Source: Coffea arabica
Taxonomy: Eukaryota > Streptophyta > Magnoliopsida > Gentianales > Rubiaceae
Assembly (NCBI RefSeq): GCF_036785885.1
Contig: NC_092320.1
Coordinates: 18,663,557 to 18,727,556 of the forward strand
Length of the DNA stretch: 64,000 nucleotides
Reading direction: 5' to 3'
Shown: positions 8,084-64,000 of the stretch, in pieces
How positions within the stretch are numbered: the stretch's first letter is position 1
Layout of the letters: each line of letters begins with the position of its first letter
Notes under the pieces: generated by a model
What the model was told of the DNA's origin: nothing
Database searches by the model: none
Seen by the model: the letters and a program-made list of their open reading frames with translations, nothing else
Made by a program: the position numbers and the translations under genes

Positions 8084-8397
8084 GGGCCTGTTTGGAAGCT
8101 TGGTTTTTTATCAAGTTTGTATAAAACTAGTTTTTTAACAACTTTTACTACAGGAACCCAAAAAACTTATCAAAGTTTTTAACCTACACACTTAAAATAT
8201 CCAAAACACAACAAAAAAAAATTCCCTTCCCCTTTTCTTCTTCTTCCTCCCTCACTACCACCTCTATTGCCGGCTTCGTCACCAATTTCCGGTGCCGGTG
8301 CCGGTCTTTTTTTTTTCCCCATTTTTTTCCCTCTCTCCCTCTTCCTCCCCTGCCATCATCCTCCCTTGTCTTTTTTTTTTCTCTCTTACGTCTGGCG

Positions 8398-8935
8398 CAG
8401 AGGGGGGTGGCACAGAGAGGGGCGGCCAAGGGGGCAGTGGGGGTAGGGGGAAGGGGCGGCCAGGGGGGCAGTGGGGGGAGGGGGAAGGGGCAGAGGGGGG
8501 CTGCGGGGGGGAAGATGGGGGAGAGAGAGGCGGCGGGGGGAGGGGGAAGGGGGCAGGGAGGGGGACGGCGGGAGAGAGAGGGAAGGCGGGAGGAGGGGCA
8601 GAGGGGGGCTGCGGGGGGGAAGGCGGGGGAGAGAGAGGCTGCGGGGGGAGGGGGAATGCGGGGGAGAGAGGGAAGGCGGGGGGAGGGGGAAGGGGCAGAG
8701 GGGGGCTGCGGGGGGGGGGAAGATGGGGGAGAGAGAGGCGGCGGGGGGAGGGGGAAGGCGGCAGGGAGGAGGACAGCAGGGGAGAGAGGGAAGGCGGGGC
8801 GAGGGGCAAAGGGGGGCTGCGGGGGGGAAGGCGGGGGAGAGAGAGGCTGCCGGGGGAGGGGGACGGCGGGACGGCGGGGGAGAGAGGGAAGGCGGGGGGA
8901 GGGGGAAGGGGCAGAGGGGGACGGCGGGAGGTGGA
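8398..8935. repeat. G-rich minisatellite, about four units of 97-111 bp
   Basis: Units each contain GGGGGGCTGCGG, GGGGGAGAGAGAGG and GGGAAGGCGGG blocks. The CTGCGG landmarks fall at about 8501, 8609, 8706 and 8817. The + strand is almost pure purine with dozens of G-runs, so it could form G-quadruplexes. Long open frames in several phases across it are low-complexity artefacts. Confidence 0.9.
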
Positions 8936-8968
8936 GTTGTAGCTGGGGCTGGTGGAGGTAACGGGGAA

Positions 8969-9085
8969 GAAGAAGAAGAAGAAGAAGAAGAAAAAAAAGA
9001 GAGGAAAGAAAAGAAAAAGGAAAGAAAGAAAAAGAAAAAGAAAAAGAAAGGGAAAGAAAAAAAAAGAAAAAAAAAGAAAAAAAAA
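8969..9085. repeat. GAA/AAAG-rich purine tract
   Basis: Runs of GAA pass into AAAAAG and GAAAG repeats directly after the minisatellite and inside the PIF-like element. Confidence 0.9.
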
Positions 9086-9225
9086 GTTTTTCACCTTACA
9101 AAAACTTTTACAAAATTTTTCACCTAACAAAAACTTCTACAAAATTTTTTCAAAAACTTCTACAGTGCACTACAGTAAAGTTTTAGACAAACTCCCAAAA
9201 AACTCAGGTTCCAAACAGGCCCTGA

Positions 9226-15672: not shown

Positions 15673-16562
15673 CCTTGACCAAATTTCTTCTTTGGGCCAC
15701 TAATCTTATCGAAAAATGGGTAGTGACACCTCAAATCGCCACAAGGCAAACAAAGAGCTCATGAAAATGACTCCTACCCAATATTTATCTGACAACTAGA
15801 AATCCTCACGACTGTGAGAAAGGACCAGTAGTTTTCACCTCAATTATGTCAAACTCACTCAGCAGTTTAATTCTTTCTTAAGTAATCACAATTCAAATCT
15901 CATACCAAACTCAATTAATTAAAGAACCCAAATGAGAACCATTTGTCACAACCCTGATCCTTCCCTCCTTTTCTTGCCTTCTATTTTCTTGTCCCCTGAC
16001 ATAATCCCGTGGGCAAACCGTGTTTATCTTTGCCTTTTACTTTTCTTTTCACACTTCCAGGGAATATATCCCATGAGTTTGATATTTTTCCTTTTAGGGA
16101 TTTTTTGGGTGAATAAAGTGTGCAAACCAGTGTGAAAAACTTCCAAGTATTCTCACAGCTTTTGGTTTCATTGTGGGATACTTTCTGCTTTTTTGATTGT
16201 GCCTGCATGAAGCAAAGAATCTATTGAGGGGTTAAAAAAAAAGGGCCAAATATGCAAAGGCAGATGATTGGAATATTACAGGCTGGTTGCTTAAAACTAA
16301 TGGCTTTTGACAACTCTTCCATTCTTTCATCATAGACTCTATAAAGCAGGAAACCGAGAGTAGTGCTCAGATTACGTCCCTTCTGTTTTCCTTTCTCCTT
16401 TTCAACGGAGGATAATTACGTGTTTCTTTATCTCTCATACCTGTATTATTCTTTTATCCTAGAAAAGTCTGGACGGTGCATCATTTTAATAGAATACAAC
16501 AAATCAGCTGAGTAAACACGGGTTCGGTTTAATTGTACCCTTATCCATGGAAAGTGAAATGG

Positions 16563-16575
16563 TATATATATATAC
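16563..16575 (+). promoter_or_regulatory. Candidate TATA box of the CYSTM gene
   Basis: TATATATATATAC about 130 bp before the CYSTM start codon. A second TATATATATAC lies near 16643-16653, only about 50 bp from the start. The first gives a more usual 5' UTR length, so I prefer it. Confidence 0.4.
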
Positions 16576-16701
16576 ACTTGAGCCTGGTTTAGAGGCCAGA
16601 TGACAACCACAGAGACACTCAATAATACATCGTTGCATTTGACATATATATATACATACAACCTTTGATTCTTCTTTGCTTGTACTGCTTCTTCTTCCAA
16701 A

Positions 16702-17291
16702 ATGGACAGGACAGAAAACCAGGTTCCTCCGGGTTAGTACCTCTGCCCCTCCTACTGATCCTGTTCCCCACTACTCTCCAGTAAGAGAAGAGGGGAGGGG
16801 ATGGAACTGGAAGGATCTTTTTATGGGCTTCTTTTTATTCTTTCTTAGCTTTTTTGGGGTTCAAGAAGCTAATTTTGTCTTTTACTTTCTGCTTGAAGGT
16901 TATCCAACTGAGAATCCTACGATGGGGAAGAAGAAGAAGAAGAGGTGTTGGCCACAATCCAAACCAAAAGGAGAAAGGGGATTTATTGAAGGATGGTAAG
17001 TCTATACACACCTTTTTATCTTCATATCCAAGAACAATAAAGATTAGTGACAGAACCACAAGAAAAAAACAACAGATATGGATTAAGATTTAGCCTGTTA
17101 TTATTGCTAACTTTCACGAGTGTTTGTTCACCATTTTTGCAGCCTGTTTGCCCTCTGTTGCTGCTGGATTTGTGAAATGTGCTTTTAATTGCATATTCAC
17201 CTTGGAAGAAGCTGATCAGTGTTTCGTTGTTTATGGGTGCAGTCTTTTTGCGCTGTGTTGCTGCTGGATCTGTGAAATGTGCTGTGACTAA
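16702..17291 (+). CDS. CYSTM-domain microprotein with two alternative last exons
   Basis: A small cysteine-rich transmembrane module protein of the kind found at plant cell membranes and linked to stress responses (family knowledge). Exon 1 is 16702-16732 (MDRTENQVPP, donor GTTAG). Exon 2 is 16899-16995 (GYPTENPTMGKKKKKRCWPQ then SKPKGERGFIEG, donor GTAAG). Exon 3a is 17143-17188 (CLFALCCCWICEMCF, stop TAA). All junctions are GT-AG and keep frame, giving 57 aa: a Pro/Gln-type N-terminus, a lysine-rich stretch, then the Cys-rich hydrophobic end. Exactly 100 bp downstream, 17243-17291 repeats the last exon with its own CAG acceptor and encodes CLFALCCCWICEMCCD plus TAA (58 aa). Choice between the two acceptors would switch only the last residues. 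An apparent open frame through intron 1 is read-through. It faces the GLDH gene tail to tail. Confidence 0.85.
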
Positions 17292-17943
17292 TATGTTATG
17301 ATATGGATTGGCGCTACATCTGCGTTACTTTTTCTTCGTGTATTTGCTGAGTTATGTAATCATGTATTCTGACGATTTATTACTGTAAAATTTTGTGTGT
17401 GTGATTTATCATACGATCAATAAATATTGTGTTTCTCTTCCTCAAAAGTTGATTGCCCCACTTTTCCAGTTTCACAACTAGTGATTCACGCATGTATCCA
17501 TCTAAAAGTGGCCAAAAAAACCTAGTTTTAACTGATGACACAAAACCAGTTTCAGCCATTTCTCCCCATATACGTTACTGTTTACTCTTTACCTGATGTG
17601 TTGAATCTGTTGTTCTAAAAGTTCCCTTCACATTTGGTAAATCAAAGTGTCTTTGAACCATATAACAGCAGCAAAACGAGGTTACAAGCCTCAATTATTC
17701 TTTGAATTTGAAAGCACAAGTTTGAGCGTTTGAAAACTGAGTGAGCACCAGCATTGAGAGGCCAAGGCAAAAGATACTCTTTAATTGAGTGTATTACCAT
17801 ATCATGTACAAACCACATCCAATGGCTAAACATGTGCAGCTCAAGGCAAAAGCGCAGAGAGAGGGTTAACATGATGATTTTCTTATATCAGATATCTGCA
17901 GAAGTACACAAGTTCTAACTAACCAGGAAGCTTTCAACAATCA
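17292..17943. other. Convergent 3' region between CYSTM and GLDH
   Basis: It should contain the 3' UTRs of both convergent genes. An AATAAA-like CAATAAATA lies at about 17419 for the CYSTM side. No further gene is seen. Confidence 0.5.
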
Positions 17944-20900
17944 TCAAACCGTCGTCTCCGATGAAGGAAACAACTTCTCCAGCATGTTATTAGAAAGAAT
18001 TCTGTTAGGATCCAGCTCTTTCCGTGCTCTATTGTATTCATCCACTGGAAACCGCTTTCTTAGCCTTGCTTGCAAAGCTGCAAGTTCTTCCTTGTCCTTC
18101 GGCACCTGCACATACCAGAAATGTCAACAAGCAGAATGAACTCCAAACAAACACCCAATTGTCAAGAATGGGACCCTTAGATAGATAACAAGAAGCATAA
18201 AATGGAATATCACCATCCACTTGGATTACTAGCTTTTCCTGGTAAAAGAATACACGTAAAATATATGACCAATGGAGTTTATGGACTCATTTAAAGGTCA
18301 ACAGCTATCGTTGTGGCTGAATTGTGCATATGCTGCTCTGTTCTTACAAAGTTATATGGTACATTTTGTCCTCAAGTCTCAAATTTAGCCTCTTATGCAG
18401 CAGAGAAGTCTCTATGGTTATATAACAGGTAGCACTTTCCCACATATATAATCGCTAACAATAAGATGAATAGTCTTCTCTATCTGTTATAACAGGACCT
18501 CAAAGATTTTACTTTTGAAATATCAAATAGGAACGTTGAGTTTGTCATAACAAATTCCTCACATCTGCTCAAGGCTAAAAATATGCACACATCTCTGTTG
18601 CAAAGCTCCTCCCAAATTCTTCCCTTTTCCTACCCAAAATCCATCTCTTCTTAGCTCTGTTCCCATTTTTAAGAGCAACATTACTGGAAAGTTGCAGACT
18701 GGAATAAGCATGTACTTACAAGCCATAAAGTAGGATCAAAATTAGAATAAATATGTAACCAAGCAAAAGTGGGAAATCTGCAATTACATATATATACCTC
18801 CATGTTCAAGTCCTCAATTTTATACAACCTCTATCAAAACACGAACTTTCTAGCCTTCAATTCATACCTCAATCTTGGCCCAATGTTCATAAGCAGAATA
18901 ACGATCCCATAATTGTTTGTATGTAAGATGCCTGTAGTGGAAGAATTCTTCTGTTATTTGTTTTCTCTGACGAGCATCAGTGGTAGGAAGATACATAATT
19001 ATTCCAACCTGGTAATAGAAAAATGAACTGGATGAGAAGATTAAAAAAAAAAATAATACTATAGTGATGCACGCTAATGCTTATTCACCAGTCCCACTAT
19101 AACTAATGCAGCAAATAATACTCCCTCCGTCCCAATAATTTAGTCGTGTTTGGGGAATCCAACTTTTTAACAATAGTAGTTGTGATTGTGATATTTGTGC
19201 TTTTCTTTCCAATTATGCCACTTTCAATGAGACAGAGGGAGTAGTAGAAAAGGCATTTCTGGAAAATAGAGAGGAGAATTTTTATTTTCCTTGCAAATAG
19301 AGAGAGGTGAAATTGCACTTCAATATCTATGACCAGCGATAATCAAACAGATTGAAAGCACTTCTATTGATAACAATATTCAAGAAAAGTGAGCAAATCT
19401 AATTATTCTGCCAATGTCAGTTTTAAAAAGAGAATTCAAGATGTTTTTTTATCCTTCCAGTCTCCCACTCCTGGTGGTCTCCTTCAGTTTGGTTTTTCTG
19501 GTGAGCGCGATAAGTTATTAATAATATGAGAAAACAGAGAAAACAAAAACGAAGGTTACTGAAGCAACTTCCTTAAGGTATCCAATCCAGAAAATTACTA
19601 AGCTGAGGCTATATCATTAGGGGATCTTGGTGAGACCTGCAGCTCATGTAAACAACAAACTTTACTGCTTCAACTTGTGACCAGATGGGTTAAACAGTTA
19701 TGCAGTGAAATGTATATTGAAGAAGCCAATATGGAGACTGAGACTTGTGTACAGCAAACATATACCTGTGGGCTTATGTTTTGGGCATGTAACATGAATT
19801 AAAAGTCTACACAAACACATTAAAATAAGTAACAATCATATCCAATATAATTATAAACTAAATATTCCATCAGTCATCCATAAAGGAGTAATAAGGAAAA
19901 GGTATGGACAACAAAGGTTATGCAGGATGGACAAGACTCCTAAAACTGTTAGATCTGTGAATGGCAAATACATTCACCCTAGCATCCAAAGAGGCTATTT
20001 TGCATGACATAGGGACACAGAAAGTAAATCCTGCCTTTTCAGGGTTACTGTCTACACCTCCACTACAAGTTATGCATAAGAACTTAGAATGTGAATGCAC
20101 ATAAAAATAAAACATGAAATGGTGAAGAAATGAACATATGAGAGGATAAGAAACTTTTAGTATTACAAGGTAGATTAGTGGGCTCCATTAAACTTTCCAT
20201 GCAGTTGGCTCTGCTGCTTCCACAATACACTCATGTCATTCTCCCCTAAATTTTTAAAACAATTAACATAAGCTGTGTACCAAACATCCCAGGCATTTCC
20301 GATTTCTCATCCATTTTGAGCCTTTTATAGAATATGATATAGTTGAAAAATCTAGTCTCTAAAGATACAACTGAATAGATACAGATCAGCTAATGGAAAA
20401 TGAGATACCACAAGTCAACTTAGGGTGCGTTTGATAAAACTGAAGTCTGAAAATTGAAATCTGAAATCTGAAGTTTGAATCTATTAAGTTATTGAATTGT
20501 TAAGTATTAAATCAAATACATTTGAGTGTATGTCATGTTCAATGATAAGTGAATAATTTATCACTTATTTTTGAGAGCAAATTTTGCCTAAGAAATTCAG
20601 TGGCACTTAATTAATTCAGATGTTCAAATTTTAATTATCAAACGCGTCTGAATATATTAAGATTTGAATACATTAAGTTTAAGTGCTGAATTGCGTTATC
20701 AAACAAGGCCTTAGCATATTAAACTATTTAACAACTATAAATGGAGGCTAAAAAAAGTTTACTCCATATTTTCAGAATATGGAGTCAGATACAGCCCCTC
20801 AGGTCCAACCAATTGATGAATAGCACATGACACTATATGTGATTCAGCAACATGGATAGTTGCTTCTACTTATTCTAGTTAAGGCAAAGATTTATATCAA

Positions 20901-23900
20901 CTATGTGCAGCAAATAAAATAAAACTGAATAGGAAACAGGAAATGAAGAAGAAAATGCAAGATACTACTACCCAACTCAATCATTCTCCTCTCCATCTTT
21001 GTTCAACCATCACCATTACTTGATACTAACTCTGTCAGTATCTCTTTTGTTGGACCATGTTTCTTCCTGTAATACTCCTTTTGCCGCCAATCATCAATCT
21101 TTACTAAAACTAAACAGCACATCAGATTGAATCCTAATCCAAATAGACCAGGAATAACTGAAGACAAGCAGGAAAAGTCCCCAGCTTAAGAAGAAAATGA
21201 TTTGATATTGGCATCTATGGTTGAAAGGGATTTTTAAAAACTTACAGTAGCATATTACTCATGCAAATTAGCAAATACAAGGAATACTAGGTCCCAATGG
21301 CAGGTCAAAAAGACAGCGAGAGAGGATAGTGACATTACCCATGAGAAAATATCATCCTCCACTGGACTATGAGCAGGACTCATGAAGCTTTTGCTGCAAG
21401 CTGTCCATCGCTGCTCTATGGGTGCAGGAGCAGGTACATTTTCCCTCTCTATGAGTTGAGTTAATTCTTCTATGTATCCCAAGTCACTCATGCTAGGTTT
21501 GGATAGTGTTCCTGTGGGAAAACAGATTTCTGAGACCCACTGCTGCCCACCACAATCAAAGCCCAAAATTTCATCACTCCAGCCTATTCGGTATCCCTCT
21601 GACTTCCTCCAGAACTCGGCCTCAGCTTGGTTGATTTTTATGACATGGTTTTTGTTGAGGGGATCTAAAGCCAGTAATTTATCTCTAAGTTCTGTAAAGG
21701 AGAGCTCATCTATGTCTGGTTCATTTTCACTTGAAGTTCCAGCGGCATTTACTCCAACTCTGCGAAAAAGATAGAAACTCATTGGCTAAACTAGACACAA
21801 AGACCAAATTGACAAGGATAAAATCAGTAGTTCAACTTTTTGAGGAAATGATTGTACGAGTCTTTCTCATTTCTTTCTTGTGCAAATACTTCATTCTTTG
21901 AGGAAAGTTTAAGTAATGGCACCAATTGTTTACCAGTCAAGCATATCCTATTGAAGACTAAACAGAGAGCACCAAATAGGAAAGAAATAACAGCAGATGA
22001 CATAACCATGCAAACGAGAATGATCTGCCCAAACCACAATTCAGTGGGAATAATGACGTAGGCAATTTCTGATTTAAAGGAGTCAACAATGCATTTTTTA
22101 CCTGTACTCCTTTAGAGACTCTCTGTAGAGATCTCGAAAAGGTTGTATAGCTTCTTCCTGGCTAAACTGAGGCTTGAACTTCGGTGGACCTTTCCATTTA
22201 GAAACAGGATTACAAGTCACAACTACAACCGTGTCCGTGTATGGTATATGCAAGTACTTCACATGCTTGTTCTCTGATAAAAATTTCCTGCAAAAGAAAA
22301 TTACAATGAGCTGTCAGAAAAATAAAAATATATATATAACTTATAGTGAAATCTGCGAAAGCTATTGGAACAATCAGCAAGAGCAAATAAAGAGAGTAGC
22401 ATAAGGTGCTCCCATTTCCCAGTCAAAATGTCATGTTTTTCAGTTTCACTCAACACATGTCTAGCAGCAGGAATTTGCACTAAATTTGCAGAAGGTAAAC
22501 ACCATTAATATTAGATTGGTTTCAGCCTGCTCTGGCGGCTTAAATATCCAGAATTCACAACGAGAACGAAGGTCAGTGTTTCAGCAAGATAGACATTCAA
22601 AAGACTACGATGAATGAGCATGAGGCTTGTCGCGAGTAAAACTGAATATAGTGATTAGACTAAACCACAAGCGGATAAAAGGCAAATCCAGTTTAAAGGC
22701 TGTCCTTGGTGCAAAGCATAAGTAGGTCTGCACTTCATTCATTTGAATACACGTATAATATTCAATACAAGCATCCACTCAATGAAGCATGCTGATAAAT
22801 CCGCTGCCATTGCCCTCTATTTTATCTAGCTAATTTCATGATATGAGAAGTTAATTATGCATGCAGATTCCATATTTCATCATCAGTAATATGTTAAGTA
22901 TGACAGTTTACTCCAGAGATTGAAATTTCATTATCAAATAATTGAAAATATTTACTTGTGATTTTTCTTGATATCTTTCAGATTAGAGACAAATGTGTGT
23001 TCTAAAAGCTCCTGTCTCTCAACACACTGAAGAGTGACTTCAGCAACCACTCCAAGGCCCCCAAGTCCACAACGTGCCAGATAAAAGAGCTCTGGATCGT
23101 TTTCTTTTGAAATTTCAATGGTTCCCTTTGCAGGAGTAACCAATTTCATGCTGACAACCTGCTCATCGATGGGAGGCAACCTTGCACCAGTACCATGTGC
23201 ACCAACCTAAAAATTTGCAATGACAAAAAATTTCAGATAATGAAAGTATCGCTAAGGCCTTAATGTGGAAGGCAAGTTTTTCACTTTAATGTTGCAGTTA
23301 CCTAAAGCAGTATATTAAAGAAGCAAAATAGATGATGAGCTGAACCAAAGCACTTGTTTGTTTTCACTTGAACTTGAGAATTAATTTGATCAAAGTGCTT
23401 GGCAGGAGAAACATTGCACTTGGAGAGAGACAGAGAGAGAATTTCCAGAGTCTCATAATGCTATTAAGCAGGTAGCTTATCTTGACTGTAAAGAGCAAAA
23501 TAAACTATCCAATTAAGTGAACTATAAAGAAGCATATTCCCAGGTCTGCAATTCTTTGCACCCTTAATTCTGAAAATTTACACAAAATGAACTAATGATA
23601 TTATCTAGTTTGTCAAACTGAATGGTAGAATAGCGAGCCAAAAATTCCACTTGGAAGACACCACGAAAAATTAACTTGGCATGACATCAAAGAATTCAGC
23701 TAAATGTAGGTAAAACTTCCCAGTAAATCCGCAGTGCCCCTTCATCAATTTACAGCTTGGTCCTTGAATTTAGCACCCCCACACCCCCCCCCTCCCAAAA
23801 AGAAAGAAAGAAATCATTTTGAACTTTTGATGAGATATAGATCAGTCCAACTCTAACCGTTGATAGTCTAATTTCATTACACAGTACTATGTAAGTTAGA

Positions 23901-24776
23901 ACACACACTTCAAAATCAAATGGGCCCCCAAAAAAAGAACTCTTTTTTAATTAACACATTCTGGAATTCAGCTAAAACGAGCAAATTAGACTTTGGGCAG
24001 GCAATTTTAAACGAAACCAATAATCTACTTCAATCATAACATAAACCCACAAAAATCTACTCAAAACCCAACAAAATATGAACGCAAATAGCCTTAGAAA
24101 AAATGCAGAAGGCCACCTGAACAATACCACCAACTTGCTGTTCCCTGATTGATGCAAAATTCTGCAAAGTAAGCCCGTAATCTTTAATCCCGTCAACAAG
24201 CTGCTGAACCCTTATCCCAGCTTGGACTCTAACTCTTTTCTTCTCCTTATCCACTTCCAAAACCTTATCCATCAATGCCAGATTCACCATTCCTGATCGG
24301 GTCAACCCGATCCCATTCGGAGACAATCCCGAGCCTACAGGCCGAATCTTCTGCTTCTTCTCATGGGCTTTCTTCACAATCTCCTCCAGCTGCTCCAACG
24401 ATTCGGGCTGGAGGAATGTCCGGGTTTGGACCTCGTGGGTCCCGCTCCAATTGGAGACCGTGTGGAGCTCTTCCGGTAACGGAGCGTACCGGAAGAGTTG
24501 GGCTTTTTTGTGCTTGGCGTCCTCCGGAAATGGGAAGGAGTAGTAGGTTGCGGCACCGCAGCCGAGGACGAGGAGCGTGTAGCCGAGGTACTTCCGGATT
24601 TCAGCATCAGTGGCTGAGGAAGGCAGTGGCGGAGGTGGTGATGGAGGTGGAGGAGGAGGAGGAGTGGAAGCGGTGGAGCAATGGCGGAGGAGGGCTGTGT
24701 TGGGGGATTTAAGGGTGGTCGGGTGGTGGTGGAGGAGCGATTGGAGAGAGCGTTTTAGATGAAGAGTTCGAAGCAT
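17944..24776 (-). CDS. GLDH: L-galactono-1,4-lactone dehydrogenase, mitochondrial
   Basis: Catalyses the last step of plant ascorbate synthesis, oxidising L-galactono-1,4-lactone with cytochrome c as acceptor in the inner mitochondrial membrane; it also assists complex I assembly (family knowledge). Six exons on the minus strand: 24776-24117, 23206-22956, 22287-22102, 21759-21339, 19008-18868, 18105-17944. All junctions are GT-AG and in frame, giving 606 aa, close to the usual ~610. The N-terminus is a basic, Ser/Pro-rich targeting region with a poly-proline run (about 39-51) and a hydrophobic segment YLGYTLLVLGCGAATYY (about 63-79). The likely mature start is after LFR, at YAPLP (about 97). 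The FAD domain shows RPVGSGLSPNG, where Leu stands in place of the flavin-linking His of related oxidases, as expected for GLDH. The C-terminal ALO domain includes GWSDEILGFDCGG, WDRYSAYEHWAKIE and ELDPNRILSNNMLEKLFP. Intron 4 carries two MITEs. Confidence 0.97.
19121..19241. mobile_element. Stowaway-like MITE in GLDH intron 4
   Basis: Ends CTCCCTCCGTCCCA and, reversed, CTCCCTCTGTCTCA, flanked by TA on both sides (19119-19120 and 19242-19243). Length 121 bp. CTCCCTC ends with a TA target are diagnostic of Stowaway (Tc1/mariner) MITEs. It sits about 110 bp upstream of exon 5 in gene orientation. Confidence 0.88.
20423..20710. mobile_element. PIF/Tourist-like MITE in GLDH intron 4
   Basis: Ends GGGTGCGTTTGATAA and, reversed, GGCCTTGTTTGATAA. 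A TTA duplication lies at 20420-20422 and 20711-20713, the classic PIF/Harbinger target. Length 288 bp, non-coding. Relatives lie at 15423 (decayed) and 44884 (left-end fragment). Confidence 0.88.
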
Positions 24777-31651: not shown

Positions 31652-33532
31652 ATGGCCTCGTTACAGCTCCTATATTCCACCCCACCTCCCAGCTCCAAGA
31701 CCACCTACTCCCCCTCCCGTCTAGACCTGTGCTCAACAATGGCCGAAATCAAGCAACACCATGCCCAAATCATCAAGTTAGGTCTCTCCTCAGACAACGA
31801 CACCATAGGCCGTGTCATCAAATTTTGTGCCATTTCTGAAACCAAGGACTTGAACTATGCCCTCAAAGTTTTCCATACATTGCCTAGCCCAGATCCTTTC
31901 ATATATAACACCATTATCAGAGGCTATTTGCAATCAAATTTGCCCAGAAACTGCATTACTTTTTATACAAAAATGTTGGAAGATTCAGTTATTCCCAACA
32001 ACTTCACTTTCCCTCCTCTTATAAGAGCTTGTTGCGTAGATAATGCTATTCAAGAAGGCAAACAAGTTCACTCCCATGTCATTAAATATGGGTTCTTATC
32101 AGATGGTTTTGCGCAAAATAATTTGATTCATATGTATGTGAATTTCAACAATTTGGAGGATGCGAGAAGGGTGTTTGATAAATTGGCCTATAAGGATGAT
32201 GTTTCTTGGACTACATTGATCAATGGGTATGCTCAACTGGGCTGTCTTGATGAGGCTTACAAAGTTTTCGAGTCAATGCCAGTTGATAAAAGAAAAAATT
32301 CTGCGGTTTCTTGGAATGCGATGATTGCAGCTTATGTTCAGAGCAGTAGATTTCACGAGGCATTTGAATTGTTTGAGAAGATGAGACTAGAGAATGTGAA
32401 GATGGACAAGTTTGTCACTGCAAGTATGTTGTCAGCTTGTATTGGACTGGGAGCTTTAGAGCAAGGAAAATGGATACATAGGTACATAAAAGAGAGCAGG
32501 ATTGAAGTCGACTCAAAATTGGAGACGACAGTTATTGATATGTATTGCAAATGTGGGTGCTTGGATGAGGCCTTTGAGGTGTTCAAAGGGTTGGAAAGTA
32601 AAGGGATTTCTTCATGGAATTGTATGATTGGAGGACTGGCAATAAATGGTAAAGGTGTGGCAGCGATTGAGCTTTTGAAGGAGATGGAGAGGGAGAAGAA
32701 TGTAGCTCCTGATTATATCACATTTGTCAACTTGTTAAGTGCTTGTGCTCATTCAGGGTTAGTTGATGAAGGAAAGTATTACTTTAGATATATGACAGAA
32801 GTTTATGGCATTGAACCGGGAATGGAACATTATGGATGCATGGTTGATTTGTTAGGTAGAGCTGGATTGCTGGAGGAAGCAAGAAAGGTTATAGATGAGA
32901 TGCCAATGAGACCTGATGTCGGTGTACTAGGGGCTCTTCTTGGGGCTTGCAAAATCCATGGGAACATTAAGCTAGGAGAGGAAATTGGGAAGCAAGTAAT
33001 AGAACTGGAGCCTAGCAATAGCGGGCGTTATGTGCTGCTAGCTAACCTATATGCCAATGCAGGCAGATGGGAAGATGTTGCTTATGTGAGAAAGTTGATG
33101 AATGACAGGGGAGTGAAAAAGGCTCCAGGCTGCTCTGCAATTGAATTGGAAGGCGCTGTCAACCAGTTTATTGCAGGAGGAAGGACTCATCCCGAAGCTA
33201 AAGAAATATATGCCAAGGTTAATGAAATATTGGATCGCTTAAGATCTGTAGGATATGTGCCTGTTACTGACGGAGTATTGCACGACATCAGCGAGGAAGA
33301 AAGGGAGAATCCCCTGTACTACCATAGCGAGAAACTGGCTATTGCTTTTGGTTTGTTAAGGGCCAAACCAGGGGAAACTCTTCGTGTCACAAAGAATCTA
33401 AGAGTTTGTAAAGACTGTCACCAGGTTAGTAAGTTAATCTCAAAAGTTTATGACCGAGAAATAGTTGTCAGGGATAGAAATCGTTTCCATCAGTTTAAAG
33501 GAGGAGAGTGTTCGTGCAATGATTACTGGTAG
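31652..33532 (+). CDS. Pentatricopeptide repeat protein, PLS class with E and DYW domains
   Basis: Intronless, 626 aa, stop TAG. Proteins of this class bind organelle transcripts in a sequence-specific way and often direct C-to-U RNA editing (family knowledge). The first ~29 residues are rich in Ser, Thr and Pro, suggesting a plastid or mitochondrial transit peptide; a second ATG at codon 30 would remove it, so the first ATG is preferred. PLS repeats run from about residue 40 to 440, e.g. YNTIIRGYLQ, VSWTTLINGYAQLGCLDEAY, VSWNAMIAAYVQ and YGCMVDLLGRAGLLEEA. The E/E+ region follows (GALLGACKIHGN, RYVLLANLYANAGRWEDVA). The DYW deaminase end has the zinc and catalytic residues intact: H558-S-E560, C586-x2-C589, H613, C620-x-C622, and the terminal DYW. 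The closest named relatives are At5g66520-like proteins; the RNA target is unknown. Confidence 0.96.
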   Translation: MASLQLLYSTPPPSSKTTYSPSRLDLCSTMAEIKQHHAQIIKLGLSSDNDTIGRVIKFCAISETKDLNYALKVFHTLPSPDPFIYNTIIRGYLQSNLPRNCITFYTKMLEDSVIPNNFTFPPLIRACCVDNAIQEGKQVHSHVIKYGFLSDGFAQNNLIHMYVNFNNLEDARRVFDKLAYKDDVSWTTLINGYAQLGCLDEAYKVFESMPVDKRKNSAVSWNAMIAAYVQSSRFHEAFELFEKMRLENVKMDKFVTASMLSACIGLGALEQGKWIHRYIKESRIEVDSKLETTVIDMYCKCGCLDEAFEVFKGLESKGISSWNCMIGGLAINGKGVAAIELLKEMEREKNVAPDYITFVNLLSACAHSGLVDEGKYYFRYMTEVYGIEPGMEHYGCMVDLLGRAGLLEEARKVIDEMPMRPDVGVLGALLGACKIHGNIKLGEEIGKQVIELEPSNSGRYVLLANLYANAGRWEDVAYVRKLMNDRGVKKAPGCSAIELEGAVNQFIAGGRTHPEAKEIYAKVNEILDRLRSVGYVPVTDGVLHDISEEERENPLYYHSEKLAIAFGLLRAKPGETLRVTKNLRVCKDCHQVSKLISKVYDREIVVRDRNRFHQFKGGECSCNDYW

Positions 33533-57660: not shown

Positions 57661-58578
57661 AACTTCATGTTCCTTTGAGAGGTTACATGTGAACAGTTTC
57701 TAACGGTTTTCTGAATGTTGTGGGTGTATAAATCAATAAGTTGAACACCAGAAAACTAACTTAAGCATTTTTTATTCTTGACTAGACAAATCCAAGAACT
57801 TGCTACTTGATTGTCTAATTAGAATTCATTGTATTCTAAAGTTTTTGTCCAGAAACCGGATTAGCAAGATAGTGGGGGCAATCAAGTTTCAAGGACCACC
57901 ACAAAAATCCCTCCAAAAGTGAGAGTTTCTCTCTCTAGGTTAGAGTGCGAGTCTCTCAACCTTGAGAGTTTCAAACCTTTTCAAAATTTTCAAAATTTCC
58001 GCAAAGACACACATATAATCCCAAGCTTCGGACATCAACCAGAATCCTTTATGCGTTGATGAAGTTAAGAAGATCGAACTTCTAAGAGTGAGATAACAAA
58101 AGCCGAGAACTTTGAGAGAATCTTGCCCCCCACTCAGGGGAAAGTTTGCATTTAAGTTTTAGCAACACTGTCGGAATATGAGAGCAAGCAGCAGCGATCT
58201 TAGCTAATCTGGCACGAGGAAACAGACTCCATGGAAGACGTAAGGGTGTTGACACGTACCTTCAGAGCCATTATCACCACTGTTCCTTGTTGTGTGCTTC
58301 ATATCTGCTAGAGTTTTTAATGTCTCTCTTTCCCAAAAGTTTTTTTTTTACGGAGATGGAAGGTTATAATTAAAATAACAAAAAAGAAGAAAGTTGTTTA
58401 AGGAAAAAAAAATTAGGGATATAAAAGATTTTTGTTGGTTTCTTTCAAAATCAGGGAGGGGGTCCTCCTTCTTTTTTAACGACTAAGTCTGCCTGGGTAG
58501 CTTCTTTGGTCTTTTTCTCGAATAGTCTTGGTCTTAGTAGTGATAGTAGGAGGTAGCTTAAGAATCTGTTTATACCCC
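57661..58578. other. Spacer and possible LINE 5' UTR
   Basis: No gene seen. The 5' end of the LINE cannot be fixed; its leader may reach back to about 57.9-58.4 kb, where GC content rises (GAGAGTTTCTCTCTCTAGG near 57921, GGGAGGGGGTCCTCC near 58455). Confidence 0.4.
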
Positions 58579-60126
58579 ATGGCGGAGGAACTAGCAGATG
58601 CGATAAGAAAGCTCGCCCTTTCAGATAAAGAACTGGAAAGTACTGACCTTGGAGGTGAAGAGTTAGATGGAGGTATTCAAGAATGTCAGTTAAGTTTAGT
58701 GGGGAGAATTAAAAGAGAGAAAGTGGTGAACTTTGTTGGAGTTAAGAACTTTGTGAACTCAGCTTGGGGGTATCCAAGGAATCTGAGGATCATAGAATTG
58801 GGTCCAAACATATTTCAGTTTTATGTTCCAAATAAAGAGGACAGAGATAGGATAGTAGGAGGTGGACCGTGGGTCATGGACAATCAAATACTGGTGATGA
58901 AACACTGGTTTGAAGGTATAGAGGAAGACATTTCTGCTTTTGACCTGGCACCTCTCTGGGTCCAAGTTTGGAATCTACCAGTACACTGGATAACAAAAGA
59001 AGCGGGATGGAAAATTGGTTCTGTATTTCAGGAAGTAAAGGATGTTCTGGTGCCTCAAGTTGGAGGGAAGGAAGGTAGACACTTAAAGCTATTAGTGGTA
59101 CTAGATACCTCCCTACCTCTACTCAGGGGATCGACAGTTAAAGTTAATGGAGCTCTAAAATGGTTGAACTTCAGATATGAGAGATGTCCAGATTTTTGCT
59201 ACAAGTGTGGAGTAATTGGACATGGAGAAAAGTCATGCAAGGAAGTAATACAGATTTGCAAAGGGAAACAGGAACATCAGTACGGTCCTTGGCTGAGAGC
59301 CAATACAGGAAAATCATCACCCCAAAAGGAACAACAAAATAAGTATACCTCTGAGAAGAATCATTGGGGCTATAAAGATGGAGAGCTAGTTCTATTAAAT
59401 CCTAAGGAAAAGGTGAATATGATATATAGTCAAAAGGACTTTATGCCAGGGAGAAAGGAAGTCAATAAGAAGGGTAATGAAGAGGAACAGACAAGTAGGG
59501 AAAAGTCCAAAGAGGTTGGAGGAGATGAGGTACAACAACAAAGATTTGAAGATAGCTGCAGTAAAGAGAAAATGCATAGCTTCAATTCAATCAGCAGCAA
59601 AAGTCATAAGGATATTTGTGCCAGAGAAGCTTAAAAAATCCTCATTGGGGGAAAGAGCAACAGTGTTCTTGAAGAAGGAAGGATGAGTATATCTGAGAAG
59701 GTAGAGAAACATGGGAAGAATAAGGGTGAAGTGGAGAGGAATGGACTTGAGCAAATAGCAGAGGAGCTAATGCAAGTAACAGTAGTGGAGGAAGATTCTG
59801 GTAGACCAGAAACAAACTTAATGCAAATTGATCCAGGATCTTCTGACGTGGGTTCAAAGGCCGCCCAAAAACATAACAGGAATATGAAGAAACAGTTGAG
59901 ATCTCCCAACATCTCAAGACAGCAATTGAGAGAATTGAGGGGGAACAGGTCTCTGACATCTCAACAAGGGAAAAGGAAACTAAATTAGGTGGATGAAGAC
60001 ATGGTAGAAGTGCAGGTGAATGAAGTTGGTCTTAAGAGAAACAAAATGGAAGAGGGGGAGGGGAATCTGAGTGAGGATCTGGAGGGGGTAGGGGTCAACC
60101 TCAACTGGCCCCTAAAGTTTCAATGA
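58579..60126 (+). pseudogene. LINE ORF1 (DUF4283 / zinc-knuckle RNA-binding protein), two premature stops
   Basis: Starts MAEELADAIRKLALSDKELE; an upstream in-frame ATG at 58528 is less likely. The N-terminal DUF4283-type domain covers about residues 40-190 (VVNFVGVKNFVNSAWGYP, GGGPWVMDNQILVMKHW, LAPLWVQVWNLPVHW). A CX2CX4HX4C zinc knuckle follows at C207, C210, H215 and C220. A hydrophilic tail follows. In-frame stops are TAA at 59632 and TAG at 59986; the same frame then continues to a TGA at 60124-60126 that overlaps the ORF2 start, which I take as the original end (515 codons). ORF1 proteins bind the element RNA. Confidence 0.88.
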
Positions 60127-63100
60127 AGGTTCTGGTGTGGAATTGCCATGGAGCAGGGAGCCCATTGACAGTTCCCTAGCTGAGGGAGGCTAACAACCTC
60201 CTCTCCTCAAACTTAATATTTCTAAGTGAAACCAAAAACAGGTATAGTTATATGAAAAAGGTCCAAAGAATTCTGGGATTTGAGGAAAGTGTGATTATGG
60301 AAGCTATGGATAGGAAAGAAGGCATGGCCTTGTTTTGGAACAATGATATTGAGGTTAGGAAAGTTGTTACAACTGCCCTTACTATAGAGGCACTAGTGAT
60401 TGACCCAGATACTCAGCTTGAGTGGTGGTTTATTGGGGTTTACATGAGCTGTGATGCTAATATAAGGAAACATTAGTGGAAGGTTTTGACTGTGAGACAA
60501 CAATTGTGGGGGGATAAATGGCTTTTAGAAGGGGATTTCAATGACATTCTTTCTAATGAAGAGAAGTGGGGAGGGAGAGCAAGAGATGATAAAAGTTTCA
60601 AGGATTTTAACAGTTTTATTGAGTATAACAGCCTTGTGGACCTAGGATTTACGGGTAACCCCTAGACATGGAGCAACAATTGGGAAGGGGAGGGGGAGAT
60701 AAAGCAAAGATTGGACTGGGGTTTGAACACCATAAGCTGGGGTCAAAATTTTGATAAAGCTAAATGTGAACATGTGGAAACTCTGGGATCAGACCATAGC
60801 ATGTTGCTCATAGATAATTGGCCTAGAGTAGAAAAATGAAGATCAAGATTTTTCTTTGATAAGAGATGGCTAAAAAGGGAAGACATTAATCAAGTGGTCG
60901 AGCAAGCTTGGAAACAGCCAGTTGAAGGGAACAATATGTATAGGATTACTAGACAGATTGCTAATTGCAGAGTGGCTCTACTCAAATGGAAAAATAACTT
61001 CACAGGAAACTCTTTGCTAAGAATCAATCAAGCTAAGCTTCAGATTAAAGAGATTAAGGACTCTAAGGACTCAGGAGTTAAGGATAAGATTGCATATTTG
61101 AAGAAGCAGTTGAAAGAGGCTTACTCTCATGAAGAGCAGTATTGGGCTCAGAAAGCAAGGATTGATTGGCTGAGAGAAGGAGATAAGAACACCAAATTTT
61201 TCCATGCTTGTGTGAAGGGAAGGAGAAGAAAAAACAGAATGCTTAACATTCAAAAGGAGGATGGAACTTGGACAAACAGTGAGGCGGAGCTGGGAATGGA
61301 AGTAGCTGACTACTATAGAGCCCTTTTCTCTAGTTCAGGGAGTGAGGGTATAACAGAGATTCTTCATGGTACACCTACTACTATCACTACTGAGATGAAT
61401 GCTAAGTTAACTAGAGAGGTGGATGAGATGGAAATTAAATCAGCTCTTTTTTCCATGAATCCTAATAAGGCACCAGGTCAAGATGGTATGTCTCCCTTGT
61501 TTTTTCAAAAATTCTGGCATATTGTTAAATCTGAGTTAATTGCAGCCGTAAGGCATTTTTTCCAATCTAGCAATTTGCCAAAGTCTTGGAATCATACGGT
61601 CATCTCCCTCATACCCAAAATTCAGAATCCTGCCAATTTGAAGAGCTACAGGCCAATTAGCCTCTGTAATGTTGTGTACAAAGTGATTTCAAAAATATTG
61701 GCCAATAGATTCAAGAAAGTTTTAAGCCACTGCATTAGTAAAAATTAGTCTGCTTTTATCCCAGGCAGGCAAATTCTTGACAATGTTATCTTGTCTCATG
61801 AATACTTGCATAACATGAAAAATAAGAAACAAGGATAGAATGGTTTTATGGCGGTGAAGCTGGACATGTCCAAGGCCTACGATAGAGTGGAGTGGAAATT
61901 CCTTGATGCCATGATGGATAAGATGGGCTGCTGTACAATCTGGAGGAATTGGATATGGAGTTGCCTCTCCTCAGTTACATGCTCCTTCAATATTAATGGA
62001 GTACCAAAAGAGTTTGTAATTCCAGAAAGAGGAATAAGACAAGGTGACCCACTGTCTCCTTATCTTTTCCTCTTATGTTCAGAAGGGTTCTCCAATTTAT
62101 TGAAGCAAGCTGAGGAAGATAAAAGGATCTCAGGAATAAAGATTAGTAGGACTGGACCAAGCATGACTCACCTATTTTTCGCCGATGATTCATTGAAGCC
62201 AGGGAACTCATTCAAATTCTGAGGAAGTATGAGAAGGGGTCTGGTCAATCTATAAATCTGGAAAAGTCCTCGGTGTTTTTCAGCAGCAACGTGAGTCATC
62301 AGAGGAAAGGGGAAGTGATACAAAGCCTAGGCACAATTTAGGTGGCTACTCAAGGAAAATACCTGGGGCTCCCTATGGTGATAACAAGATCTAAACAGCA
62401 AGTTTTTGGATACATTAAGGATAGTATCAGTAGAAGAATGAATAGTTGGAAGAACAAGTTGCTCATCCAAGGAGGGAAATAAGTTTTATTGAAGGTAGTT
62501 TCCATGGCAATGCCAGTTTATACAATGTCCTGCTTTAAACTCCCTAACAAATTGTGCAAAGAAGTGACCTCCATTTTTGCTAACTACTGGTGGGGAGAAA
62601 ATGATGGAAAAAATGAGATGCACTGGTGCTCATGGAGGAGATTGGCTAAAGAGAAAAAAGAGGGAGGTCTAAGATTTAAAGATTTGCAGAACTTCAATAA
62701 AGCCTTGTTGGCTAAACAGGTCTGGAGACTGATTTCCAAACCTAATTTATTAGTCAGCAGGGTCTTGAGGGCAAAGTACTTCCATAGGGACTCAATCTTT
62801 AAGTGCAAAGTCCCAAAGTGTGCTTCCTGGATTTGGCAAAGCATGATGAATGTGAGAGATTTTGTGCAAAAAGGAACTAGGAAGAAGATAGGCAATGGCA
62901 AGGCTACAAACATTTGGGAGGATAACTGGATTCCAGGAAATAGGGATGGAAAAGTCACATCTGCAAGGCCTCAGAATTGCAACATTAAAAGAGTAGATGA
63001 GTTGATCAGTGGCTTTAGATGGAGGAAACTATTGGTACTGAGAACCTTCAACAGGAAGGATGCTAACGAAATTCTGGATATCCCTATAAGTATCTCAAGA

Positions 63101-64000
63101 AGGGAAGACAGCAACTACTGGCTCCATAGTGGCAATGGCATCTATACGGTCAATTCTGGGTACAAGGCATTGAGTAGAGAAACAACCCAACATATAGTAG
63201 GAAAAGTTAATGAGGCAGAAACGAGCTTAGCAAACTGCAATGGAAAGCAATGGAAGTGGTTGTGGAAGTTGAGAGTCAAAAGCAAGATAAAACACTTCAT
63301 TTGGAGGAGTCTACATGGGCTAATTCCAGTTAATGCCTTGGTGTTTAATAGAACAAACCAGGGAGATCCAATATGTGATGGCTGTGGAGATCAAAATGAG
63401 TCTATTGAACATATGTTTTTCCAGTGTAGCAGAACTCAAGAGGTATGGAAGATGGCCCCAATACAGTGGGATGGATTAACGGGACTGACAGGGAATTTTA
63501 GAGATTGGTGGAATGCAATGCTGGAAGCCTCAGGTAGGACAGAGGGGAAGGAGCATATAGAGCTTACTACGAATATCCTGTGGCAAATATGGAAAAGGAG
63601 AAATGAATGGAAGTTTAACGCTAAACGAAAGCACCATTGGAAAACAGTTAACAAGGCTCAACAGGATTGGCAAGAGCAAGCCTCAGCTTGGAGTACTGAT
63701 ATAAGGACCCCTGAGGATGCTGGAAGAGAAGGAGGAGAAGTAGAACCAGTGGAGGTACGAAGTGATGAATTGCAGATCAAAATATCAACTACTGTGCAGG
63801 AACAGACCAAAAGTGTTGGTATTGGGATTTTAGCAACTAACCACAGACATCAGGTGGTGTCAGCCTGGGCACTAATTGATAGGAAAGCAGTAAATTAGTT
63901 GCAGACTATAGCAGAAGCTGTGAAGATGGCCATTATAAAAGCCAGATATCAGCAATGGCAGAAAATTACAGTCCATGTTCCCAGCCCACAGCTACTGAAA
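60123..64000 (+). pseudogene. LINE ORF2 (endonuclease, reverse transcriptase, RNase H), multiply broken
   Basis: Starts at ATG 60123 (MKVLVWNCHGAGSPLTVP), the opening of the APE-type endonuclease; its other motifs are LSETK, LEGDFNDIL and GSDHSMLL. The reverse transcriptase (about 61440-62190) shows NPNKAPGQDGMSPLFFQKFW, ISLIPK, LKSYRPISLCNVVYKVISK, AVKLDMSKAYDRVEW, GIRQGDPLSPYLF and the FADD catalytic box at 62178-62189. A zinc-binding RVT region (WLWKLRVKSKIKHFIWR, CDGCGDQNESIEHMFFQC) and the start of RNase H (QTKSVGIGIL) follow. In-frame stops: 60177, 60474, 60663, 60837, 61746, 61836, 62339, 62480, 63896. Just after FADDSL a deletion near 62195 shifts the frame by +2 and removes part of the palm. 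Truncated by the window end. Confidence 0.93.

Follow-up and report, generated by a model that had tools for sequence, protein, structure and literature searches.

A CYSTM microprotein gene with two homologous last coding segments, probably an old pair of alternative membrane tails

Gene content of the window

The window, meaning the whole 64-kb stretch of DNA analysed here (C11:18663557-18727556), contained a three-exon CYSTM gene in which the last coding segment is present as two homologous versions, A and B (Table 1). Several other features were encountered around it. An open frame on the forward strand (71-1123) displayed DUF3420 and ankyrin repeats, which we take to be the domain pair of NPR1-type immune receptors. 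Long overlapping open frames occurred on both strands at 8279-9130, the minus-strand frame having no Pfam match at E 0.001. A neighbouring gene or genes occupied 17941-24776 on the reverse strand, with FAD_binding_4 in frame 24060-24776 and a C-terminal coding exon, read by eye, near 17941-18110. Further along, a forward open frame of 626 codons (31652-33529) carried PPR repeats together with E, E+ and DYW deaminase domains, and is presumably of the organelle RNA editing type. Three forward frames within 58528-63898 displayed DUF4283 and a zinc knuckle, a match to reverse transcriptase that was weak and fell under its cut-off, and zf-RVT; they probably represent non-LTR retrotransposon remains. 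The gene content is that of a plant.

Exon 2 of the CYSTM gene ends as ATG|GTAAGT, inside a Cys codon. Intron 1 is 166 nt long, and intron 2 is 147 nt (to A) or 247 nt (to B). The product of the A form would be 57 aa long (MDRTENQVPPGYPTENPTMGKKKKKRCWPQSKPKGERGFIEGCLFALCCCWICEMCF, with the C-terminal end ...CLFALCCCWICEMCF) and that of the B form 58 aa, identical to the former except for a terminal ...CEMCCD (C-terminal end ...CLFALCCCWICEMCCD). The amino acid switch takes place at codon 15, which is TTT (Phe, then stop) in A and TGT (Cys, then Asp and stop) in B. A previous sequence-only reading of this DNA had placed the two segments 100 bp apart in the same phase; its coordinates, spacing and phase were right, the acceptors ending at 17142 and 17242 and completing the split codon as TG|C and TG|T. 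The Phe end and the Cys-Asp end that it had opposed to each other at the C-terminus were borne out by translation.

Table 1. Features of the CYSTM gene in the window and last exons of its paralogues
Feature	Position	Strand	Details	Basis
Coding exon 1	16702..16732	+	from ATG; MDRTENQVPP and first base of a Gly codon	sequence, phase
Coding exon 2	16899..16995	+	ends ...YPTENPTMGKKKKKRCWPQSKPKGERGFIEG and TG of the split Cys codon; then donor GTAAGT	
AATAAA inside intron 2	17036..17041			
Candidate branch point for acceptor A, TGCTAAC	17105..17111	+		motif
Acceptor A (CAG)	17140..17142	+	14/20 pyrimidines ahead	
Last coding segment A	17143..17188	+	ends ...CEMCF-stop	
Candidate branch point for acceptor B, CTGAT	17212..17216	+	kept in C12 copy	motif
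Acceptor B (CAG)	17240..17242	+	12/20 pyrimidines ahead	
Last coding segment B	17243..17291	+	ends ...CEMCCD-stop	
AATAAA	17419..17424	+	sole such signal downstream of B in a scan of 16000-17600; would serve both forms	
Paralogue last exons	C3, C4		CLAALCCCCLLEACF, CLAALCCCCLLDACF	
Paralogue last exon	C14		CLAALCCCCLLEECCF	
Paralogue last exon	C13, C14 (one on each)		CLAALCCCCLIDECCCDPSIIFVS	
Paralogue last exon	C3		CLAALCCCCLLDECCCDPSVIFVD	
Paralogue last exons	C9, C10		CLAVLCCCWIWDRCCWY / CLAILCCCWIWDRCCWY	

Family membership and paralogues

Microproteins of the CYSTM family influence immunity and stress tolerance and are anchored in the membrane by a short cysteine-rich tail. Both forms matched the Pfam profile CYSTM (PF12734; cut-off 25.2), the A form with 56.2 bits (E 3.7e-15) and the B form with 54.7 bits (E 1.1e-14); neither form matched in NCBIfam. 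Both are small proteins with a cysteine-rich stretch running from residue 43 to the end. The last exon, which encodes this module, begins within a Cys codon, and the last exons of eight paralogues read as CYSTM ends likewise.

These eight paralogous last exons were found in the same genome (131 contigs, 1.198 Gb) and were varied in their tails, which included ACF, ECCF, RCCWY and ECCCDP. Their translation presupposes that exon 2 supplies a TG, as was seen for two of the eight, in which exon 2 ends with GF[ML]EG-TG. Such variation shows that different ends are tolerated or used within the family, and as translated the tails of A and B fall within the paralogue range. A second TGYTGYTGY stretch was found at none of the eight paralogues within ~1.5 kb downstream, a search that a strongly diverged copy would escape.

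The first pattern search of the genome returned 11 matches (a control pattern gave two), composed of three at the CYSTM gene, six CYSTM last exons and two spurious ones (on C8 and at C11:33459190), which ran into a stop at the split codon. A second pattern returned 37 (control three), with four at the studied gene, the two spurious ones again and 31 others; 12 of these 31 were translated, yielding two CYSTM-like exons, and 19 were left untranslated, so that the list of paralogues is a lower bound. The two exons in question, C9:8379278 and C10:7529287, have CAG ahead and display an unusual end, CCCWIWDRCCWY. The Pfam profile, which performs poorly on split exons when applied to a genome, gave three matches, none of them at the studied gene and one, with 26.9 bits at C10:39943387, just over the cut-off. 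A protein search gave six matches, four of which lay at the two copies of the CYSTM gene (see below); the other two, on C5 and C6, had E values of 0.65 and 0.74 and one internal stop each. No relatives were confirmed among 92 pattern matches in the bacterial and archaeal collection and 44 in the viral one, a result with no bearing on plant orthologues.

Splice signals and type of event

TGCTAAC and CTGAT are of the branch-point consensus type, and their candidate branch-point adenines are located 32 nt upstream of acceptor A and 27 nt upstream of acceptor B, respectively. The pyrimidine content ahead of acceptor B falls inside the range of 10-12 per 20 bases displayed by five paralogue acceptors, and B is therefore not unusually weak; the acceptor of intron 1 in the CYSTM gene has 16. 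Since acceptor A comes first and has the better tract, the B form may nevertheless be minor. When the pre-mRNA of the region was folded, 95 of 100 shuffled sequences did at least as well (z +1.83), and a special RNA structure guiding acceptor choice was thus unsupported.

The arrangement had been described as tandem alternative last exons. Two homologous endings are indeed present; the notion of separate last exons had to be given up. Because a single AATAAA lies past B in the scan of 16000-17600, and because B would belong to the 3' UTR when acceptor A is chosen, the layout is that of a single terminal exon offering two acceptors, and the event, if real, would strictly be a choice between alternative 3' splice sites. 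Each segment has its own stop, which makes the choice mutually exclusive by layout.

Likeness of A and B and long-term selection

Over their 14 shared codons, A and B displayed five differences, all five synonymous, and the same residue at all 14 positions. The sequence-only reading had reported synonymous differences only, over 15 shared codons; the five silent changes stand, and the shared stretch has to be reduced to 14, codon 15 changing from Phe to Cys. The chance of five random substitutions all being silent was 4.5e-5 without transition bias and rose to 3.5e-4 with a bias of 3. Divergence starting at sequence A was also simulated at eight levels, with 4000 runs per level, no codon bias and a transition bias fixed at 2. 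When B was neutral, five differences without any amino acid change were obtained in 0 runs at all eight levels. When both copies were constrained, the same outcome was commonest (23% of runs) around 0.5 mutations per site per branch, and its share was at least 12% between 0.25 and 1.0. The simulation rejects neutrality of B since the duplication. It also leaves very little room for B as a relic or chance copy that was never coding, which we consider highly improbable: a neutral B would have gained several amino acid changes by the time it had five differences (3.5 on average at the lowest level simulated). Long-standing protein-level selection on both A and B after the duplication appears well supported.

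The 30-base core of A occurred twice in the window within three mismatches and in none of 100 shuffles, and the 64-kb window held no third copy at this threshold. A looser motif gave 21 matches in the window against a shuffle mean of 7.5; by eye, only the two already known were taken as exons. The pair is organised as a tandem-duplicated exon would be: the homologous segments are adjacent, have their own splice sites and share the same phase, and the comparison of A with B in the window copy indicates long-term coding constraint on both.

The second copy of the locus and recent constraint

A second copy of the locus was found on C12, 95% identical across the 601 bases searched. Several other gene pairs were likewise encountered on neighbouring contig numbers (C3/C4, C9/C10 and C13/C14), a pairing that may reflect an allotetraploid such as Coffea arabica or else a phased diploid. 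In the C12 copy both frames, the stops, the acceptors and the candidate branch point of B were intact, and A and B were 98 bp apart, with a 2-bp indel beside CTGAT.

No base differed between the copies in exon 1 (0/31), exon 2 (0/97) and segment A (0/46), which, when pooled (0/174), has a probability of 2e-4 under the background rate; the stretch ahead of segment A (17101-17142) was also unchanged (0/42). Segment B differed at two of its 49 bases (4.1%), close to the non-coding background of 4.75%, and its surroundings were below it, with 1/52 between A and B and 2/148 in the 3' UTR. The difference between A and B in this respect (0/46 vs 2/49) did not reach significance (Fisher p 0.50). Of the changes in B, one was silent and the other, GCG to ACG in C12, replaces Ala by Thr; it probably arose on the C12 side, since A has Ala there. 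When A and B are compared inside the C12 copy, the 14 codons contain six silent differences and one that replaces an amino acid.

The claim that both copies had stayed under protein-level selection after the duplication thus holds for the long term, on the strength of the five silent differences and the simulation. It could not be extended to the recent history of B, for which constraint is unproven because the C12 segment carries one synonymous and one Ala-to-Thr change. Non-synonymous decay of the second exon in orthologues had itself been named as a sign against the proposal, and this sign was encountered once, in a mild form, in the C12 copy. Constraint on B may have relaxed in C12, or the changes may be due to chance. 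It is conceivable that B was long a working end and is now relaxing, being rarely or never spliced in at least one copy, with A as the only important product today. The near-background divergence of B in C12 next to unchanged exons 1, 2 and A, its one non-synonymous change and the favourable position and tract of acceptor A would suit such a history. In both copies B nevertheless retains its reading frame, stop, acceptor and candidate branch point; two changes are too few to tell, Ala to Thr is mild, and this history was judged unlikely.

The slow change of the 3' UTR raises a further alternative, in which acceptor choice acts through mRNA stability or translation and the difference in tails is incidental. 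According to the coordinates, the A form has ~103 nt more UTR, carrying B, than the B form. Constraint on UTR or RNA does not, however, predict that five of five differences fall on silent third positions, and the region does not fold better than shuffles, so that an effect of this kind seems quite improbable.

Age of the duplication

Non-coding divergence between the C11 and C12 copies corresponds to ~0.024 per branch. Because A and B are best described by ~0.5 mutations per site per branch, their duplication looks roughly 20 times older (10-40 or more) than the C11/C12 split, an estimate carried by only ~7 silent sites and one that gene conversion between A and B would turn into an underestimate. 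The flanks displayed no A/B likeness beyond chance, since 185 of 500 shuffles attained the score on the upstream side and 441 of 500 on the downstream side; a duplication reaching into the flanks was hence undetectable, and the result is in line with an old event. If the duplication is this old, related genera should share the A/B pair.

Proposed switch

As far as the sequence goes, the observation is real, and the argument for selection on A and B is sound once corrected as above. The reading we favour, and hold to be probable, is an old alternative-acceptor switch of a membrane tail with long-kept A and B endings. The gene product would be a tail-anchored membrane microprotein of the CYSTM type, and its last coding segment would have been duplicated in tandem long ago, creating two competing acceptors. 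Splicing of the donor at 16995 to 17143 would give the -CF end and leave B in the 3' UTR, and splicing to 17243 would give the -CCD end. The two forms would share a cysteine-rich stretch of 14 residues, and their difference would be limited to the very C-terminus, which is probably exoplasmic. Both acceptors are presumed to be used, and the tail, in which an extra Cys and an Asp replace Phe, might tune S-acylation, dimer formation or sorting.

A wider version of this proposal can be advanced only tentatively, being possible rather than probable. In it, the switch is far older than the split of the copies and common to many related plants; one gene would supply two tails of a kind that the family otherwise splits among genes, and stress-dependent choice of acceptor would re-tune anchoring or pairing, not the amount of protein. 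If the switch is true, a natural pair of tails from one gene would offer a clean test of the role of the extreme C-terminus.

Comparison with known systems

Alternative splicing arising from tandem exon duplication was reportedly treated by Kondrashov and Koonin in 2001, and alternative ends generated in this manner are known. The CYSTM pair resembles tandem exon duplication in general by having two homologous coding segments side by side in one phase; it differs by the shortness of the terminal segment (15-16 codons) and by products that diverge in no more than their final one or two residues.

The predicted proteins have the cysteine-rich C-terminal module of plant CYSTM proteins such as Arabidopsis CYSTM1, the PCC1/PCM group and Bs5 of pepper and tomato. 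In PMC13205671, the 'exon 3' fragment of Arabidopsis CYSTM1 (Table A1; translated by eye) is of the same length as A, 46 nt, and starts one base into a codon. Bs5 is described, in the portion available, as having three exons with a TM deletion in exon 3 (PMC10030403). In PCC1, both self-association and anchoring at the plasma membrane depend on the cysteine-rich C-terminus (PMC3903633), and tomato lines edited in Bs5 and Bs5L were disease-resistant (PMC11536453, in part). Unlike the locus studied here, CYSTM1 and Bs5 are presented without a second last-exon copy, and the string 'splic' is absent from the available portions of PMC13205671 and PMC10030403; in that of PMC8049917 it appeared solely in a software title among the references. 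A limited search of the literature on CYSTM splicing and isoforms, with the main paper on the CYSTM family outside its range, retrieved no report of alternative last exons and no CYSTM case of tandem exon duplication giving alternative ends. This agrees with the earlier reading, which knew of no such switch in the family.

A further parallel was FLM/MAF1 of Arabidopsis, in which, as given in the accessible text of PMC3266260, splicing picks one of two exons and thereby switches a short segment of the protein. The exons of FLM/MAF1 are internal and belong to a MADS protein, whereas the CYSTM pair is terminal, would depend on acceptor choice and has the same residue at all 14 shared positions. 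Protein-level splice switches seldom persist in plants according to the conclusion of PMC2674458, which was available in part; if true, the CYSTM pair would stand against that conclusion as a plant switch of this kind that has long been kept.
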